Origin: Alkalidesulfovibrio alkalitolerans DSM 16529 | Lineage (GTDB): Bacteria > Desulfobacterota > Desulfovibrionia > Desulfovibrionales > Desulfovibrionaceae | DNA length: 64,000 bases | Assembly (NCBI RefSeq): GCF_000422245.1 | Contig: NZ_ATHI01000007.1 | Span: forward strand, 1 to 64,000 | Direction: 5' to 3' | Shown: positions 24,879-34,939 of the stretch, one piece after another | Layout: each line of letters opens with the position of its first letter | Numbering within the stretch: position 1 is the stretch's first letter | Translations under genes and position numbers: made by a program | The notes under the pieces: generated by a model | The model's input: only the letters and a program-made list of their open reading frames with translations | What the model was told of the DNA's origin: nothing | Database searches by the model: none

Positions 24879-27029
24879 ATGCGCTCCGCTTCGCGCGCCT
24901 TCGCCCAGGCCGCATGCCTTTTCGCGGCCTTTGCCGCATGCGTGGGGCTTCGCCTGCTTGAGGCGCCGCGCTGGTTCGCCCCGGAACTTCTTCTCGACGG
25001 GCAGCCGCTGATGAGCACCCACGATGCATATGCCTGGCTCGCCGGAGCCATGGGCGTCAACTTGCGCGGACATGAGCCGCTGGCCGTCATCGTGGAACTC
25101 GTGAACGGTCTGACCGGCCTGAGTCCCGAAGCTATCGGCTTCTGGCTCCCGCCGCTGCTCGCTGCCTTGGCCGGACTCCCCTTCGTGCACCTGGCACACC
25201 GGCTGGGAATTCTCGCCTTTGGCTTTCCGGCCGCCGTGGTCGCGGGGTGCTCCCTTGGCTACGTCGTCCGCACGCGCGTCGGGAGCCTGGACACAGATCC
25301 CTTTGCGCTGTTTTTTCCGCTTTTCCTGGCAGTGGAATTGTTCATCACACTTTCCCCTTTGCTTCGTGAAGTTTGGCGCGGTCCGGCTGAAAAGCCAGAT
25401 GTACGTGGAGCGCCCGATCGTGTCTCTGTCGGTGCCTGCTTCGGTTCATTCGGCCTGGGGCTTTGGTGCATGGCGGGCGTGTGGCTGTATGCGGGCATGC
25501 GGCCCGTAATTACCATACTGCTTTGCTTCGCCGCGCTGCTCGGGGCGGCTTTGGGCCGTCCTCAGGTGCGTCCGTGGTCGGTGGTCCTGCCGCTTCTTCC
25601 GCTGGCCATGCTCGCGCTTGGTGGCGGGGCAGGGGTCGTAGTCGGCCTGGGCTTTGCGCTGGCGGTGTGGCGCAGGCCGGAACTGGGATTCTCGCGGCGG
25701 GCCGGATGGACGATAGCCGCCGCTCTCGCGCTGATGGTGGTGGTGTTCGGGTTTGAGATCGTGCGCGACATCGTCGTTCGTCTTGACTACTGGCTGTTCC
25801 CGGCGGCGGACGTTGTCGTGAGCGCAACCAACGGACCGAACCTGCCCTCGGTGCTACAGAGCATCCGCGAAGCGCAGTCCATGCCTCTTGTCGACGTCGC
25901 GCGATATCTTTCGGTCCATCCCGTCCTGACCATTGCCCTCGTGCTCGGGTACGCTTGGCTGGCGTTCAGGCGTCCGGCGGCGCTCGTGTTCGTACCGCTG
26001 CTTGCCCTTGGTCTGTGCGCCTCGATCCTTGGCGCGCGTTTCGTCATGTTTGGCGCGGCCGCGATGGGAGCGGGCGTCCTGGGGCTCGGGCTTTTGGCCC
26101 GCCGCTTCGTCCCGCGCGCCTGGGGCCGCTTTCCCCTGGCCGTCGCCCTCGCGGGGGCGATCCTTGTGCCCGCGACCCTTTTCATGGACAGGCTCAGGCC
26201 CGACCCCGTGCTCTCACCGCGCCATGCCGCCGCGCTCGCGGAAATCTCCAGCGTCACGCCGTCTTCCTCGTGGCTGTGGTTGTGGTGGGATTACGGCTAT
26301 GCGGCCGAATTCTACGCCGAGCGCTTTCCCATCGCCAACGGCGCGCGCCACGATGCAAAGTGGCTCTACCCCCTGGCCGCCGTGCACGCAGGCAAGCCTT
26401 TCGAGGCCGCGAACCTGATGCGCTTCTTCGCCTTCTCCATGCAGGCCCAGGAGCGCGCCCTTTCCGAGCGGCCCGAGATATCCGGCAATCCGTCCTTCAT
26501 TCACGAACGCACCCCGCCCATGACCGCTCTGGCAGGGCTGGACGGCCTCTCGGCCCAAGCCGAAGCGCAGGCCGTGGCGGACGGCAGGAGAAAGCCGGAA
26601 GGCGGCTACCCGGACCAGTATTTCGTGGTCTCCTGGGATACGCTTCGGCTCGCGGGCTGGATCATCCGTTTCGGCACGCGCAATCTGGCCGACGGCACCT
26701 TCGCTACGGGCGACGTGTCGCGGATTGAGGGCGACATGCGCGTGGACACCGAGCAGGGACTCCTGCATTCGCCCCTCGCCGGAACGTTGCCGCTGGCCAG
26801 CCTGGACGTGCTCGACGAGGCCGGGAACAGCGGCTTTTCCTGGCAGCGCGGTTCGGGCATGCACGTGGTCATGAACAGGCAGACCCGCGAGGCTTTCATG
26901 ATGGACGCAACGGCCTATGGAAGCGCTATGGTGCAACTGCTGGTCGGGGAGCCGAGCCGCTTCGCCCGGGACTTCGAACTGGTGATCGACGCCGCGCCCT
27001 GGGCCAGGGTTTACCGCCTGCTGCCTTAG
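24879..27029 (+). CDS. STT3/PglB-type oligosaccharyltransferase
   Basis: This 716-residue membrane enzyme belongs to the STT3 family, which moves a lipid-linked oligosaccharide to Asn of Asn-X-Ser/Thr sequons in the periplasm. Visible hallmarks are the first catalytic Asp in MSTHDAYAWLAGA (D49), the second acidic motif GSLDTDPFALFF (D138, D140), about a dozen hydrophobic helices and the sequon-binding WWDYG at 469-473. GGAGAAG nine bases before the ATG at 24879 decides the start; another ATG at 24861 has no ribosome site. It diverges from the glycosylase-envC operon. No glycan-assembly genes flank it. Confidence 0.93.
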   Translation: MRSASRAFAQAACLFAAFAACVGLRLLEAPRWFAPELLLDGQPLMSTHDAYAWLAGAMGVNLRGHEPLAVIVELVNGLTGLSPEAIGFWLPPLLAALAGLPFVHLAHRLGILAFGFPAAVVAGCSLGYVVRTRVGSLDTDPFALFFPLFLAVELFITLSPLLREVWRGPAEKPDVRGAPDRVSVGACFGSFGLGLWCMAGVWLYAGMRPVITILLCFAALLGAALGRPQVRPWSVVLPLLPLAMLALGGGAGVVVGLGFALAVWRRPELGFSRRAGWTIAAALALMVVVFGFEIVRDIVVRLDYWLFPAADVVVSATNGPNLPSVLQSIREAQSMPLVDVARYLSVHPVLTIALVLGYAWLAFRRPAALVFVPLLALGLCASILGARFVMFGAAAMGAGVLGLGLLARRFVPRAWGRFPLAVALAGAILVPATLFMDRLRPDPVLSPRHAAALAEISSVTPSSSWLWLWWDYGYAAEFYAERFPIANGARHDAKWLYPLAAVHAGKPFEAANLMRFFAFSMQAQERALSERPEISGNPSFIHERTPPMTALAGLDGLSAQAEAQAVADGRRKPEGGYPDQYFVVSWDTLRLAGWIIRFGTRNLADGTFATGDVSRIEGDMRVDTEQGLLHSPLAGTLPLASLDVLDEAGNSGFSWQRGSGMHVVMNRQTREAFMMDATAYGSAMVQLLVGEPSRFARDFELVIDAAPWARVYRLLP

Positions 27030-27586
27030 CAGATCGCCCCCAAAACGCCGCATGTCGCGTCGCCGCGACGAATTCGAGCCTCCGCGCAGACAACCTCCCG
27101 TCGTGCTTGATTTTTTTCGCGCGGCCTTGCATCTGGCGCTTGTAGAACGGCCTGAGAAGCGGAGTTTATCGACTTCTTCCTGGCAGGCCAGCGACATTTG
27201 CTCCACTCCAATTTCAATCAAAGCAACAAGGCGAAACGAAAGGTGCGACGAAAGCAATTTTGTCGTAACGGCTTGCAGCATTTCTCTATTTCCATCTATC
27301 CATGCGATGGAACAATTGGTGCTGGCTCGTCGAGCATCTCTGAAGGCATATCTTGGATTCATTGTACCATTTTGTGAATTCGATGGTGAATATTCGTCAT
27401 AATGTCGGTCGGATTGTCGGCAGCCTGCCGACTCTATCAATCAGTTGTCCAGTCCTTTGAATTTTTCGACTATCAGTAGATTCTATCCGAATTAATATTT
27501 GCCTCGAATTCTATCTATGCTACATGCCGCGTAAGAACCTGGGCCAGCCATGGGGGGCTGGCCCGTACGCACCAGGAGGTGTCCCG
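27030..27586. other. AT-richer intergenic region before the selenopeptide gene
   Basis: These 557 bases are visibly AT-richer than the surroundings from about 27130 to 27530. I find no credible gene; the open frame at 27052-27402 has no ribosome site or recognisable sequence. A hairpin GTCGGCA/TGCCGAC (27416-27432) and a second one at 27541-27564 are present. The promoter of the peptide-maturase cassette must lie here, but several AT-rich -10-like strings make the choice arbitrary. Confidence 0.5.
27541..27564 (+). promoter_or_regulatory. Leader hairpin just before the selenopeptide ribosome site
   Basis: GGGCCAGCC (27541-27549) pairs with GGCTGGCCC (27556-27564) around a six-base loop, ending ten bases before AGGAGGT. 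The same GGCCAGCC/GGCTGGCC words recur at 27907 and 27936 and just before the maturase ATG (27997), so alternative pairings between leader, spacer and maturase start are possible. Confidence 0.6.
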
Positions 27587-27883
27587 ATGAATCCCAAGAA
27601 TCTCAAGAAGTACCTTGCCTGCCTGACCCTGGCCGGCCTGGTTGCCACCAGCACCGGTGTGGCGCTCGGGACCAGCGGTTGAGGCGGCAGCCGTCCGGAC
27701 GCCGGGAGCGCCCAACCCGCCATATCGCCCGAGGAACAGACACTCATGGAGCAGTTGAAGGCCAAGGAAAAGGCTGGCAACATCACGGAGGAAGAAAAGC
27801 AGCAGCTCGAGGAGTTGAAGAAGCGCATAAAGTCGAAAGACAAGCCGGCCCCCAGCGGCTGAGGCGGCGCACCCAAGAACTAG
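27587..27883 (+). CDS. sbtA: Putative selenocysteine RiPP precursor peptide with two in-frame UGA codons
   Basis: If UGA at 27680-27682 (codon 32) and 27860-27862 (codon 92) are read as selenocysteine, the gene encodes 98 residues ending at TAG 27881-27883. AGGAGGT is six bases before the ATG. The N-terminus is leader- or signal-like (MNPKNLKKYLACLTLAGLV, then up to G28). The two UGAs sit in the same motif, Ser-Gly-Sec-Gly-Gly, with nearly identical DNA (AGCGGyTGAGGCGGC). Between them lies a Lys/Glu-rich helical region (residues 52-82). A radical SAM maturase follows. The layout matches what I remember of selenobiotic/SbtA-type precursors; this was not searched. The alternative is a 31-residue peptide ending at the first UGA. 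Confidence 0.8.
27683..27712 (+). other. Candidate SECIS element for the first UGA
   Basis: Right after UGA-1, GGC (27686-27688) pairs with GCC (27701-27703) and CC (27691-27692) with GG (27697-27698), leaving the apical loop GUCC (27693-27696), 11 bases past the UGA. An outer GGCG/CGCC pairing (27683-27686 with 27709-27712) is an alternative. Bacterial SECIS hairpins sit at this distance and present a G-U-containing loop to SelB. The fold was drawn by hand. Confidence 0.4.
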
Positions 27884-27898
27884 CGCGGTCCGCGCTAG
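27880..27898 (+). other. Candidate SECIS element for the second UGA
   Basis: CTAGCGCG (27880-27887) pairs perfectly with CGCGCTAG (27891-27898) around GUC, 26 bases beyond the second UGA. The TAG stop lies inside the 5' arm. The apical GUC(C) resembles the loop of the first candidate. It could instead be a simple stability hairpin. Confidence 0.45.
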
Positions 27899-27905
27899 GT
27901 CAATC

Positions 27906-27944
27906 AGGCCAGCCGTCCGGGTAGGGATACGGGACGGCTGGCCT
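27906..27944 (+). other. Strong stem-loop between peptide and maturase genes
   Basis: AGGCCAGCCGTCC (27906-27918) pairs with GGACGGCTGGCCT (27932-27944) over 13 perfect base pairs, without a T-run. Such hairpins after RiPP precursor genes are consistent with high precursor and low maturase output by attenuation or processing. A second small hairpin (27959-27978) follows. Confidence 0.75.
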
Positions 27945-28005
27945 CGGAAGCGCATCCCGCCGCCGTTCCGCCGGCGGCAGTCATCTTTCAAACCCGGCTG
28001 GCCAT

Positions 28006-29445
28006 ATGACCGTCATCCAAGCCCTGAACGCCCTGCGTGATGCCCTGGCCCGGACTGCGGCCCAGGGTGCCGATATGCCCGCCGATCCCGAAACGCCGCT
28101 CCTCAACCCGAGTCTGAGCCTGCACGAAGCCGCGTTCACGGGGCTGTCGGCACGGCTGGAGCACTCCCGCTCCCCGGAGCCCGAACCGGGACGCGAACTG
28201 CTGCTGGTCTGGTTCGATCCCGGCCAGGGGCGAAGCCTGGCCAAGGCTGCCACGGACGCCGACCTGCTGGCCCTGAAGATTGTGGCCGAGGGTACGGGCA
28301 TGCGCCAGGCGGCCCGCGCCGCGGGCGTCAATCCGGCAGTCGTTCGTCTTGCCCTGCGGCAGGCCGCTCAGGCCGGCCTGATCCGCTTGCCTGCCTCCCG
28401 GCTGGTGCGCGAGAACGGTTTCTGCGATCATCCCGTGCCCGAGGACTTGGCCAGGGCTCAGGCCTTCACCTTGCAGTGGCACATCACCCAGGCCTGCGAC
28501 CTGCATTGCCGACATTGCTACGACCGCTCCCCGCGCGCGGCCGTGAAACTCAAGCGCGGCCTGCGCGTGCTGGACCAGATGGCCGACTTCTGCGAGCAGC
28601 GCCACGTTCCGGGGCAGGTCAGTTTCAGCGGCGGAAACCCCTTCCTGCATCCCCACTTCGAGGATCTGTACGCTGCGGCCCTGGAGCGCGGACTGTCTCC
28701 GGCCATCCTGGGCAACCCGGTGTCCCGGGAGCGGCTTAGGGCCGTCTGTGACATGGCCCGGCCAGTGTTCTATCAGGTAAGCCTGGAAGGGCTCCAGGAG
28801 CATAACGACTACATCCGCGGCCCCGGACACTTCCGCCGGACCCTGGAATTCCTGGACCTGTTGAAGGAGGAAGGGGTCTCTTCCATGGTCATGTTGACCC
28901 TGACCCGGGCCAATCAGGAGCAGGTTCTGCCCCTGGCGGAAACCTTGCGCCTCCGGACGGACCTCTTCACCTTCAACCGCCTGTCGCTCTTCGGCGAGGG
29001 CGCGGCCCTGGCCTGCGCCGACACAGCCTCCTACGGCGGCTTTCTGGACGCCTGTGTCGCGGCTGCCCAGGACAACCCCGTCCTGGCCTTCAAGGACGGG
29101 CTGCTGAATCTGGCCCTGGAGCGCCGCGGGGAGCGGCTCTTTGCCGGTTGTGCGGGACACGGCTGCGGCGCGGCTTTCAGTTTCCTGGCCGTGTTGCCGG
29201 ATGGCGAGGTGCATGCCTGCCGGAAACTGCCCTCGGCCCTGGGCAGCCTGGCTGAACACAGTCTGGCGGAGATCTACGATTCCCCGGCTGCCAGGGAATT
29301 CCGTCGAGGCGCGAGCGCCTGCCGCTCCTGCGTCCACAAACCCCGCTGCGGCGGCTGCCTGGCCGTGACCGCAGGCCTGGGCCTGAACCCCCTACAGGAT
29401 CGCGACCCCTACTGCTTTCGCCAGAACCAGGGTCTATCGTCGTAA
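28006..29445 (+). CDS. sbtM: Radical SAM/SPASM peptide maturase
   Basis: The 479-residue enzyme has the radical SAM cluster motif C164-DLH-C168-RH-C171 and a glycine-rich SAM site (SFSGGNPFLHP). The C-terminal SPASM-like domain has auxiliary-cluster cysteines including C439, C442, C448, C451 and C470. The N-terminal 135 residues look like a winged-helix or leader-recognition domain. SPASM enzymes modify ribosomal peptides, and the gene directly follows the double-Sec peptide, so that peptide is the expected substrate. It resembles what I remember as SbtM (selenobiotic maturase). The ATG at 28006 lacks a clear Shine-Dalgarno, so translation may be low or structure-controlled. Confidence 0.88.
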   Translation: MTVIQALNALRDALARTAAQGADMPADPETPLLNPSLSLHEAAFTGLSARLEHSRSPEPEPGRELLLVWFDPGQGRSLAKAATDADLLALKIVAEGTGMRQAARAAGVNPAVVRLALRQAAQAGLIRLPASRLVRENGFCDHPVPEDLARAQAFTLQWHITQACDLHCRHCYDRSPRAAVKLKRGLRVLDQMADFCEQRHVPGQVSFSGGNPFLHPHFEDLYAAALERGLSPAILGNPVSRERLRAVCDMARPVFYQVSLEGLQEHNDYIRGPGHFRRTLEFLDLLKEEGVSSMVMLTLTRANQEQVLPLAETLRLRTDLFTFNRLSLFGEGAALACADTASYGGFLDACVAAAQDNPVLAFKDGLLNLALERRGERLFAGCAGHGCGAAFSFLAVLPDGEVHACRKLPSALGSLAEHSLAEIYDSPAAREFRRGASACRSCVHKPRCGGCLAVTAGLGLNPLQDRDPYCFRQNQGLSS

Positions 29446-29547
29446 TGGCAACAGTCTGCGGATCGTTGCACTTGACGACCGCCTGGAGAACACGGCGGGC
29501 GGCCGTTTCGCCATGGTTCGTTCCTTTCCGGTGATGACGGGAGCATT

Positions 29548-29585
29548 AAAAAAGCCCCGGAAGCGGTATCGCATCCGGGGCTTTT
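29548..29585. terminator. Bidirectional terminator after maturase and prmA
   Basis: AAAAGCCCCGGA pairs with TCCGGGGCTTTT across a 12-base loop. A-runs and T-runs on both sides let it stop the maturase transcript on the plus strand and prmA on the minus strand. Confidence 0.9.
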
Positions 29586-29618
29586 CGCAAAAAGCAAAAT
29601 GGATTTGGCGGGTGCGGG

Positions 29619-30479
29619 TCAACTCTTGGCAGCGGTGTCGAAGACCAGGGCCGCCCACTCCCCCGAATGGCGGAAGACAGGGGCGGGAAGTCCTCGCCGC
29701 CCGTAGGCCGCGGCTACTCCGGGGGCCTGCTCGGTCAGCACGCCCGAGAGCACGAGCACTCCGTTCGGCGCAAGACGCGCCGCGATATCCGGGGCCAGGG
29801 CGATGAGCGGTCCGGAGAGGATGTTGGCCACCACCAGCCCGTAGCCGGGCTTTGGCCGCACGCTCTCCACGCCGCCCACGGCCAGGGCCACGCGGTCCGA
29901 AACGTTGTTCGCGGCCAAGTTTTCCGTGGCGCAGGCCACGGCCTGGGGATCGATGTCCACGCCAACGCCGGAGAGTCCGAGCAGCGCCAAGCCGATGGCC
30001 AGGATGCCCGAGCCCGTGCCGATGTCGAGAAACCGTGTGTCCGGGCCGATCCGGCCGCCTTGCGACAACTCGCCGATGGCTTCCAGGCAAAGCGCCGTGG
30101 TGGGGTGGTGGCCGGTGCCGAAGGCCATCTTGGGCTCGATGACGATGCTCTTGCGGCCAGGGCCGCCCGAGGCCGCGAGCCACGGAGGCAGCACCTCGAA
30201 CGCCTCCCCGGCCATGACCGGGGTGAAGAATTCTCGCCAGGCAAGAGCCCAGTTCTGCTCGTCGATCTCGCTCACGCGCACGGCGCTGTCCGGGAACTCC
30301 CGGCTTAGCAAGGCCACAAGCTCGTCGGCCAGCGGGTGGTCGTCGATGTGGAAGGTGAACCAGGTGCGGCCGTCCACGGGCGAAAGGGACTCCTCCCAGC
30401 CCTGGGGTGCGCGGTTGGAGAGCAAGGTCACGGCGCGCTCGTAAGCGGATTCGGCCACGGAGAATTCTATGCGTTGCAC
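29619..30479 (-). CDS. prmA: Ribosomal protein L11 methyltransferase
   Basis: PrmA trimethylates ribosomal protein L11 with S-adenosylmethionine. The 286-residue protein has a small N-terminal substrate domain, the linker PKMAFGTGHHPTTALCLE (about 116-133) and the SAM-binding motif FLDIGTGSGILAIGLALLG. The conserved VVANILSGPL catalytic segment is near residue 217. It is the last gene of dut-aminotransferase-prmA, 15 bases after the aminotransferase. Confidence 0.95.
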   Translation of the reverse strand: MQRIEFSVAESAYERAVTLLSNRAPQGWEESLSPVDGRTWFTFHIDDHPLADELVALLSREFPDSAVRVSEIDEQNWALAWREFFTPVMAGEAFEVLPPWLAASGGPGRKSIVIEPKMAFGTGHHPTTALCLEAIGELSQGGRIGPDTRFLDIGTGSGILAIGLALLGLSGVGVDIDPQAVACATENLAANNVSDRVALAVGGVESVRPKPGYGLVVANILSGPLIALAPDIAARLAPNGVLVLSGVLTEQAPGVAAAYGRRGLPAPVFRHSGEWAALVFDTAAKS

Positions 30480-32186: not shown

Positions 32187-32371
32187 GTGGGGCTCCGGAT
32201 GCGTTCGTTGCGGGCCGCGAAAGTAGTCCGAAGCCTCGCAAAAGGCAACACGCCACGGGTCTTTCCCGAAGCATTGCTTTTTGGCCCCGCTTTGGGCACT
32301 GATGGGAATGGATCATGCCGTGCGGATCATGCGTCCGTCCGGCGAGAACGCGTCAACGTCAAGGAGAGTGC

Positions 32372-34939
32372 ATGCGCCCAATCCGCAGCTTCAGCGTCAT
32401 CCCGAGGCTTCCCCCCAAGCTCGAAGTGCTTTGGGATTTGGCCTACAACTACTGGTTCTGCTGGAACGACGGCGTAAGCGATCTGTTCGCTCAGATCGAT
32501 CTGGACATCTGGCGCGAGTGCCACGGCAATCCCGTGGCTTTTCTGAACCAACTGCCGCAAAAAATCCTGGAGGAACTGGCCCGCGACGAATTCTTCGTCG
32601 AGCGCGTGCGCGACGCCAAGAAGAACCTGGACGACTATCTGGCTCGCACCGTTTCGCCCGTGCCTTTTCCCGGCCACGAGGGCCGTACACCGGCCGTGGC
32701 CTATTTCAGCGCTGAGTTCGGCATCGACGCCAGCCTGCCCGTCTATTCGGGTGGTCTGGGCATCCTCGCGGGCGACCATCTGAAGTCCGCCTCCGACCTG
32801 AACGTTCCGTTGGTGGCCATCGGCTTGGCTTATAAAAAGGGCTACTTCAGACAATACCTGACGCCCGACGGCTGGCAGCAGGAACGCTATCCGGACTCGG
32901 ACTTCGAACAACTGCCCATGAGTTTGGTCAAGAACGACGATGGCGACCCGCTGACCATCTCCGTGGACATGGCCGGGCGCGAATGCCGCGCCCAGGTCTG
33001 GAAAGTGGCTGTGGGCCGCATTTCGCTTCTGCTGCTCGACGCCAACATCGCCGATAACGATCCCGATCTGCGCGAAGTCACCGCCCAACTTTACGGCGGA
33101 GATTGGGAGATGCGCATCCGCCAGGAAATACTGCTCGGCATCGGCGGCATCAGGGCGCTTTGGGCCATGGGGCTTGCGCCCACGGTCATCCACATGAACG
33201 AGGGGCATTCCGCCTTCGCCGGGCTTGAGCGCATCCGCGTCTTCATGTCCGAAAGCAAGCTCGCCTTCGAGGCGGCCGTGGAGCTGACCGCGTCCACCTC
33301 GGTCTTCACCACCCACACTCCGGTTCCGGCAGGCAACGACCGCTTCGATCCGGGGTTGATGCAGAAATATTTCGAGGGCTACGCAAAGAGCCTTGGACTG
33401 GCCTTCAAGGTCTTTTTGGCCCTTGGCCGCGAAGACCCGCGCAACGACGCCGAAACCTTCTGTATGACCGTGCTCGCGCTTCGGCTCTCGCGTTTCAACA
33501 ACGGCGTCTCTGAGTTGCACGGCAAGGTTTCGCGCAACATGTGGAAGCGCGTCTGGCCGCAGTATCCCGTGGACGACGTTCCCATCAGCGCCATCACCAA
33601 CGGCGTGCACCAGCCATCCTTCGTGGCCCCGGACATGGCCGCCCTCTATGATCGCTATCTGGGCATTAACTGGAAGGAAGACCCCGACTGCGCGCGGGTC
33701 TGGCGTCAGGCGCAGAACATCCCCGATTCGGAGTTGTGGCGTACCCACGAGCGGCTGCGTGAGCGGCTGGTCGATTACGCTCGCCACCGCGTGGCCGACA
33801 CGCAACGCAAGCGCGGAGCGAGGCGGCGCGAAGTGGAGGAGTCACTCGAAATCCTCGACCCCCGCGCCCTGACCATCTGCTTCGCCCGTCGCTTCGCCAC
33901 TTACAAGCGGGCCAACCTGCTGTTCATGGACGTGGAGCGCCTGAAGCGGCTGGTGGGCAACCCCGACAAGCCCGTGCAGTTCATCTTCGCGGGCAAGGCG
34001 CACCCCCAGGACAACGAAGGCAAGAAGCTCATCCAGCAGATTATCCAATTGTCGCGTACGCCCGAACTCAAGAACAAGATAGTCTTCCTCGAAGACTACG
34101 ACATGAGCGTGGCTCGCTTCATGGTCCAGGGCGGCGACGTGTGGCTGAACAATCCGCGCGTGCCTCTCGAAGCCTGCGGCACCTCGGGCATGAAGGCCAT
34201 GTCCAACGGCGTGCTCAACGTCAGCACCCTGGACGGCTGGTGGGCCGAGGCGTATCAGCCCGACAATTCCGTAGGCTACGGCATCGGCCAGGGCGAGATA
34301 TACGACGATTGGGACTACCAGGATTTCGTGGAGAGTCAGACGCTGTACAACGTCTTGGAGAACGACGTCGTTCCCGACTTCTACGACCGGGGGCACGGCA
34401 ACATGCCGCGCGGTTGGGTGCGGCGCATGAAAAACGCCCTGGTCCACCTCGGCGCGGCCTTCAGCGCGCACCGCATGGTCGAGGACTACGTGCGCAACGC
34501 CTACATCCCGGCCTTCAAGAACTACCGAGAACTGGCCGCCAGGGATTTCGCCAAGGCCAAGCAGATGGCGTCCTGGCGCATGGACGTCATGACCAAGTGG
34601 GGTGATATCCACATCCGCAACGTGCGGACCGAATCCCCGACGCAAGTCTTCGTCGGCGAACCGTTCCTCATCGAGGCCGAGGTCTGGCTGGCGGGACTCC
34701 CCGTGGACGACGTGCGCGTGGAGCTTTATGCCGGGCCCATCAATCAGGACGGCGACGTGGATCGGAGGCGGACCATCGCCATGTCTCCAGACGGCGAGAC
34801 CGAGGACGGCTGGAAAATATTCAAGGGCGAGCTTTTGCCCCAGGAGGCGGGCCGTTTCGGCTTCACCATCCGCATCCTGCCGTTCCATCCGCTGCTGATC
34901 GACCCGCGTTCGCTTGGCCTGATACGCTGGGTGGGCTAG
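32372..34939 (+). CDS. glgP: Alpha-glucan (glycogen) phosphorylase
   Basis: GlgP releases glucose-1-phosphate from glycogen or maltodextrin ends. The 855-residue protein is of the TIGR02094-like type, with VYSGGLGILAGDHLKSASDL near residue 126, TTHTPVPAGNDRF near residue 313, FARRFATYKRANLL near residue 509 and the PLP-lysine region CGTSGMKAMSNGVLNVSTLD near residue 604. AAGGAGAG is a few bases before the ATG at 32372; the open frame starts at 32315 without support. It stands alone but belongs functionally with glgA and glgB at 40-44 kb. Confidence 0.96.
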   Translation: MRPIRSFSVIPRLPPKLEVLWDLAYNYWFCWNDGVSDLFAQIDLDIWRECHGNPVAFLNQLPQKILEELARDEFFVERVRDAKKNLDDYLARTVSPVPFPGHEGRTPAVAYFSAEFGIDASLPVYSGGLGILAGDHLKSASDLNVPLVAIGLAYKKGYFRQYLTPDGWQQERYPDSDFEQLPMSLVKNDDGDPLTISVDMAGRECRAQVWKVAVGRISLLLLDANIADNDPDLREVTAQLYGGDWEMRIRQEILLGIGGIRALWAMGLAPTVIHMNEGHSAFAGLERIRVFMSESKLAFEAAVELTASTSVFTTHTPVPAGNDRFDPGLMQKYFEGYAKSLGLAFKVFLALGREDPRNDAETFCMTVLALRLSRFNNGVSELHGKVSRNMWKRVWPQYPVDDVPISAITNGVHQPSFVAPDMAALYDRYLGINWKEDPDCARVWRQAQNIPDSELWRTHERLRERLVDYARHRVADTQRKRGARRREVEESLEILDPRALTICFARRFATYKRANLLFMDVERLKRLVGNPDKPVQFIFAGKAHPQDNEGKKLIQQIIQLSRTPELKNKIVFLEDYDMSVARFMVQGGDVWLNNPRVPLEACGTSGMKAMSNGVLNVSTLDGWWAEAYQPDNSVGYGIGQGEIYDDWDYQDFVESQTLYNVLENDVVPDFYDRGHGNMPRGWVRRMKNALVHLGAAFSAHRMVEDYVRNAYIPAFKNYRELAARDFAKAKQMASWRMDVMTKWGDIHIRNVRTESPTQVFVGEPFLIEAEVWLAGLPVDDVRVELYAGPINQDGDVDRRRTIAMSPDGETEDGWKIFKGELLPQEAGRFGFTIRILPFHPLLIDPRSLGLIRWVG

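Follow-up and report, generated by a model that had tools for sequence, protein, structure and literature searches.

We have analysed a stretch of 64,000 nucleotides from Alkalidesulfovibrio alkalitolerans DSM 16529 (contig NZ_ATHI01000007.1, positions 1 to 64,000; here called the window), and in it the gene sbtA, a reading frame at 27587-27883 with two in-frame UGA codons, together with its downstream neighbour sbtM. An earlier prediction, made from the sequence alone, had described this frame as a hidden gene for a selenocysteine (Sec)-containing precursor of a ribosomally synthesized and post-translationally modified peptide (RiPP). The locus is real, the original prediction was right in kind, and the gene belongs to the known SbtA family. 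All coordinates refer to features on the forward strand.

Results

The sbtA frame opens with ATG 27587, six bases behind the Shine-Dalgarno sequence AGGAGGT (27574-27580), and runs over 98 codons to the stop TAG 27881-27883. TGA occurs at codons 32 (27680-27682) and 92 (27860-27862), exactly where it had been placed, and both are predicted Sec codons. Each stands in the context Ser-Gly-UGA-Gly-Gly, written as AGCGGTTGAGGCGGC and AGCGGCTGAGGCGGC in the DNA, which confirms the repeated motif and agrees with the SG-[C/U]-G sites of the family. Coding character was said to continue past the first UGA, and it does: GC content at codon positions 1/2/3 is 0.61/0.42/0.81 for the 59 codons between the UGAs, close to the 0.72/0.49/0.82 of sbtM. 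The leader (residues 1-26, 27587-27664) looks like a signal peptide with a hydrophobic core after KK (2.12 over 12 residues) and would direct export. It scores 38.6 bits against NCBIfam TIGR04081 (SbtA family thio(seleno)oxazole RiPP precursor, cut-off 30.5), and in a genome-wide search with this model sbtA is the only match above cut-off (40.4 bits).

The adjoining sbtM (28006-29445, 479 amino acids) encodes a radical S-adenosylmethionine (SAM)/SPASM maturase that reaches 617.7 bits against TIGR04082 (SbtM, thio(seleno)oxazole maturase, cut-off 350). The assignment as an SbtA-type precursor with a radical SAM neighbour is thus borne out by both family models. Pfam locates the radical SAM domain at residues 160-312 (28483-28941), with CxxxCxxC at 164/168/171, and the SPASM domain at residues 387-442 (29164-29331). 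Invariant cysteines in 54 SbtM sequences are C164, C168, C171, C382, C387, C405, C439, C442, C448, C451 and C470. Residues 1-145 (28006-28440) form an N-terminal module that corresponds mainly to the RiPP recognition element (RRE)-like half of an HvfC/BufC-type module, as judged from profile comparison and from model and fold matches. In the profile comparison the match to HvfC/BufC has a probability of 98.1%, with controls at no more than 2.1%; the N-terminal part of SbtM and the HvfC/BufC module (DUF2063 plus RRE) are homologous. A sequence search of the PDB with the N-terminal profile gave no significant match (best E 0.19), and our literature search found no paper pairing DUF2063 with SPASM. 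The bufferin paper PMC12452194 mentions neither 'SbtM' nor 'seleno'.

TGA terminates 17 of the 44 long, largely non-overlapping open reading frames (ORFs) of the window, which are mechanical ORFs and not all genes. Therefore UGA works as a stop here too, which speaks against a changed code, as had been argued. One ORF used in that argument, at 32315-34939, we take to be glucan phosphorylase-like rather than glgB. The original prediction had asked for the Sec machinery to be confirmed elsewhere in the genome, and the four genes that together mark a selenoprotein-making bacterium are all present: selA (613.8 bits), selB (389.7 bits), selD (346.4 bits) and selC, the tRNA-Sec gene (88.8 bits, anticodon TCA). 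The selD gene (L106:1522, C6) itself has an in-frame TGA, at an AAG-U-AAK site, and because of this context SelD of A. alkalitolerans is probably a selenoprotein, the second likely one.

SbtM above cut-off was found in 21 of 348 genomes of the order and in 39 of 395 drawn from the phylum, the source genome being included in both counts; in the protein search 3210 of 7995 candidates scored at E 1e-60 or better. SbtA was sought beside SbtM in 63 loci, namely the window, four named loci (L002-L005, from Desulfobulbus, Desulfobulbaceae and deltaproteobacterial metagenome-assembled genomes), 20 others of the order and 38 of the phylum. This gave 65 leader-bearing SbtA-like peptides from 57 loci; L055 (the contig begins inside sbtM), L100 (truncated) and L084, L085, L089 and L101 (no peptide found) were excluded. 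None, one, two, three and four UGAs were counted in 5, 4, 30, 19 and 7 peptides, respectively, L060b, L088a and L088b being cut at a TGA taken as their stop. At least one UGA is present in 60 of the 65 peptides, at least two in 56 and three or four in 26, and a UGA-bearing SbtA occurs in 56 of the 57 loci, the exception being L082. Two Sec sites in one small peptide had been considered unusual. This cannot be upheld: two or more Sec sites are the usual state among the SbtA relatives examined, and the part of the 2026 review PMC13188914 available to us lists the SbtA family ('Selenobacteriocin') with the motif SGUG and two Sec.

Relatives that all end at the first UGA would have spoken for a true stop. 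Instead, the SbtA relatives continue past it with further Ser-Gly-UGA/Cys-Gly motifs; they were translated with every TGA read through, and their TAA or TAG ends arise by construction, the recurring motifs do not. Cys homologues, for which a search had been suggested, exist within one genus: the site that is UGA in L050 and L051 is Cys in L047, which keeps the hairpin behind it. L082 is an all-Cys SbtA, as are the second copies L060b and L077b. In L060 (genome G275) the Sec-bearing and the all-Cys copy lie next to each other; the latter, L060b, ends in SSCG-TGA with no hairpin behind that TGA. L094 and L096 are relatives with many Cys motifs, in which only the last motif has a UGA.

A Sec insertion sequence (SECIS)-like hairpin was defined as a stem of five or more pairs closed by a loop of five bases, the second of them G, with the loop lying 17 to 31 bases away from the U of the UGA. 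We settled this rule on a first peptide set after its hairpins had been viewed, and the second set was not used in making it; the two sets share ancestry and are not independent events. Of the 59 UGAs in the first set 47 fit the rule, compared to 5.4% of the dinucleotide shuffles (n = 5900) and 10% of the other codons (n = 1379). The second set gives 70 fits among 81 UGAs; for Cys codons beyond residue 31 the count is 2 of 40, and for the remaining codons it is 180 of 2234. L088a, L088b and L092b, whose frame probably ends at a TGA, were excluded from the UGA and other-codon counts of the second set; with L088a and L088b cut and L092b whole the count is 75 of 90 UGAs. The sites of these three peptides are mixed, and the codon-63 TGA of L092b, taken as a stop, also bears a strong hairpin. 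Among later Cys codons of the first set 2 of 15 fit, the exchanged site of L047 and a site in L059 that is followed two codons later by a UGA. The commonest distance from the UGA to the start of the loop is 23 bases (49 of 117), and the stem sequence varies widely with both sides changing (90 distinct hairpins, picked for pairing).

In the window, hairpin 1 behind codon 32 (27696-27714, loop CGGGA) fits the family rule with five pairs and one mismatch and is weak. Hairpin 2 behind codon 92 (27880-27898, loop GGUCC) is strong, with nine pairs, fits the rule and is seen in the computed fold, and the stop TAG 27881-27883 sits in the 5' arm of its stem. L059 likewise has its TAG in a hairpin arm, and in L058 and L062 the TAG spans the arm end and the loop. 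An Rfam scan of 27400-28100 found no SECIS or other family above gathering score. Ten SbtA peptides (L044, L045, L048, L049, L052-L054 and L063-L065) end in a predicted Sec directly before the stop; because this is their last residue, the SECIS must lie 3' of the stop. In seven of them the best hairpin with a five-base loop behind the penultimate UGA has GAUAA as its loop, which takes in the UAA stop along with part of the last UGA.

A hydrophobic core is present in every one of the 65 leaders (Kyte-Doolittle mean over 12 residues of at least 1.85). A strict lipobox is found in 11 of 65; in 2000 shuffles the mean count was 3.0 and the highest 10. The SbtA leaders thus resemble signal peptides, and some of them carry a lipobox.

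Discussion

We conclude, with a probability of roughly 0.87, that 27587-27883 encodes an SbtA-family precursor in which both UGAs are likely read as Sec, and that the downstream SbtM is predicted to oxidise both to selenooxazoles. SelB and tRNA-Sec would read each UGA, aided by the hairpin behind it, the second hairpin containing the stop codon in its stem. The RRE-like module of SbtM might bind the SbtA leader, and the enzyme would then take four hydrogens from each Ser-Gly-Sec-Gly, as reported for another SbtM, leaving selenooxazoles. Finally, the leader could act as a signal peptide for export of the ring-bearing peptide. For the peptide of the window, Sec insertion, ring formation, binding of its leader by SbtM, export and a role in metal binding or redox are all inferred.

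Several observations weigh against this reading. The family search suggested with the original prediction succeeded for the leader, but the whole peptide (Cys for Sec) returned no homologue at E 0.001. At codon 32 a rival fold is better than hairpin 1 by 3.9 kcal/mol, placing this hairpin 44th of 47 on that measure, and the regions of the two UGAs fold no better than shuffled sequence (z 0.59 for the first, -0.58 for the second). Leader Cys codons also fit the hairpin rule in 14 of 53 cases (8 of 29 in the first set, 6 of 24 in the second), and a looser energy score gives no separation between UGA and Cys codons, leader Cys included (means -12.2 and -11.9 kcal/mol). A hydrophobic leader does not by itself imply export. 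Finally, selB is found above cut-off in 353 of the 395 phylum genomes. Its presence in 52 of 53 other SbtM genomes tested therefore says little, and we discarded this co-occurrence as support. These 53 were taken from 58, with G027, G033, G044, G457 and G541 omitted; in the phylum-wide scan G541 has selB and G457 does not.

Of the alternatives, the one that survives best is that Sec is inserted and SbtM of this branch forms selenoether crosslinks, similar to ranthipeptides or sactipeptides, instead of selenooxazoles. The SbtM of the window lies far above the TIGR04082 cut-off. According to the part of the review PMC11002830 available to us, an SbtM of this same family removes four hydrogens from Cys and Sec substrates, and its Cys product was identified by nuclear magnetic resonance as a thiooxazole. 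We therefore regard selenoether formation as unlikely. Even less probable is that the UGA at codon 32 is a true stop, so that only a 31-residue peptide is made and the remainder is non-coding or a decayed gene. The weak first hairpin, disfavoured in the free fold, would fit such a stop, but the codon-position GC pattern holds up to the second UGA, the motif recurs at codon 92 with a nine-pair hairpin, and relatives with their own UGAs share the layout. The least probable alternative, decoding of UGA without selenium by a different tRNA (for Trp or Cys) or through accidental read-through, might be suggested by the Cys found at the motif in some relatives (L047, L068, L082), but it is at odds with TGA as terminator of long ORFs, with the Sec genes and UCA-anticodon tRNA-Sec of the genome, and with hairpins that are far commoner behind UGAs than behind later Cys codons.

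The preferred reading, an SbtA precursor carrying two Sec residues, places the locus in the SbtA/SbtM thio(seleno)oxazole RiPP system, with which it shares the leader, the SG-U-G motifs, two Sec and an adjacent SbtM. It differs from other members by a charged spacer of 59 codons between the two sites and by an SbtM that begins roughly 45 positions into the TIGR04082 model. The SPASM radical SAM RiPP maturases SkfB, CteB and SuiB share 17 to 20% sequence identity with SbtM and differ from it in making thioether or carbon crosslinks. New here are the hairpin census, the stop codon within a SECIS stem and the SbtM module that resembles HvfC/BufC. Among the SbtA relatives examined, peptides with more than one selenocysteine are the rule, and there is now a simple hairpin test for their UGAs.

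The shared module invites a comparison with the bufferins. According to the sections of PMC12452194 available to us, bufferins hold copper in the periplasm via thiooxazoles, HvfC/BufC is the partner of the iron enzymes (MNIO) that form these rings on the exported peptides, and the precursors have signal peptides dependent on the Sec secretion pathway, about 16% of those of Buf2 being of the lipoprotein type. Both systems have a reported thiooxazole chemistry, signal-peptide-like leaders and a homologous HvfC/BufC-type module. In contrast to bufferins, where the ring is made by an MNIO on Cys, the enzyme beside sbtA is a radical SAM/SPASM protein predicted to act on Sec, and the module is fused to it. 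Genome scans found no match to PF05114 (MNIO) at E 0.001 and none to DUF2063 at E 1e-8. SbtA/SbtM may be the selenium counterpart of bufferins. Because of the chemistry, the leader and the shared module, we infer that the products of SbtA carry selenooxazoles, are exported and might bind soft metals or serve in redox protection; here our interpretation is least certain. If the HvfC/BufC link is true, two thiooxazole pathways with unrelated enzymes have a precursor-handling part in common, and metal binding outside the cytoplasm becomes a role for the selenopeptides that can be tested. A broader and tentative proposal, to which we give somewhat less than even odds, is that SbtA/SbtM might be the selenium branch of a wider class of exported, partly lipid-anchored peptides with thiooxazole or selenooxazole rings for binding soft metals at the cell envelope, with a radical SAM enzyme fused to a bufferin-type leader-handling module. 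Two unrelated ring-forming enzymes would then be attached to one shared precursor chaperone.

Additional observations

Among ORFs of at least 90 amino acids at 25 loci, no cluster besides sbtM occurs in more than five loci; with no other conserved neighbour, the context therefore gave no role. At L111:203-499 and L112:238-498, small Cys-rich ORFs with a signal peptide lie 5' of MNIO-like genes (judged by eye) together with a DUF2063 gene, an arrangement that resembles oxazolin-type clusters.

Two further RNA structures with the pattern GGCCAGCC/GGCTGGCC flank sbtA. One lies in the 5' untranslated part (27542-27563; -21.9 kcal/mol, z -2.3), the other, a very stable hairpin, between sbtA and sbtM (27907-27943; -31.4 kcal/mol, z -5.9), and base pairing between their arms, around the gene, is conceivable. 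The pattern occurs twice in the window, with 0.00 expected, and at five places genome-wide. A structure with z of -2 or lower is found after 40 of 63 sbtA genes and upstream of just 7 of 63, and we rejected the upstream palindrome as a family trait. Four terminator-like matches were counted in comparison to 2.4 in shuffles, and both promoter-like sites are on the opposite strand. GC content falls to 47-48% at 27150-27600, 5' of sbtA, compared to about 63-71% over most of 25500-30449.
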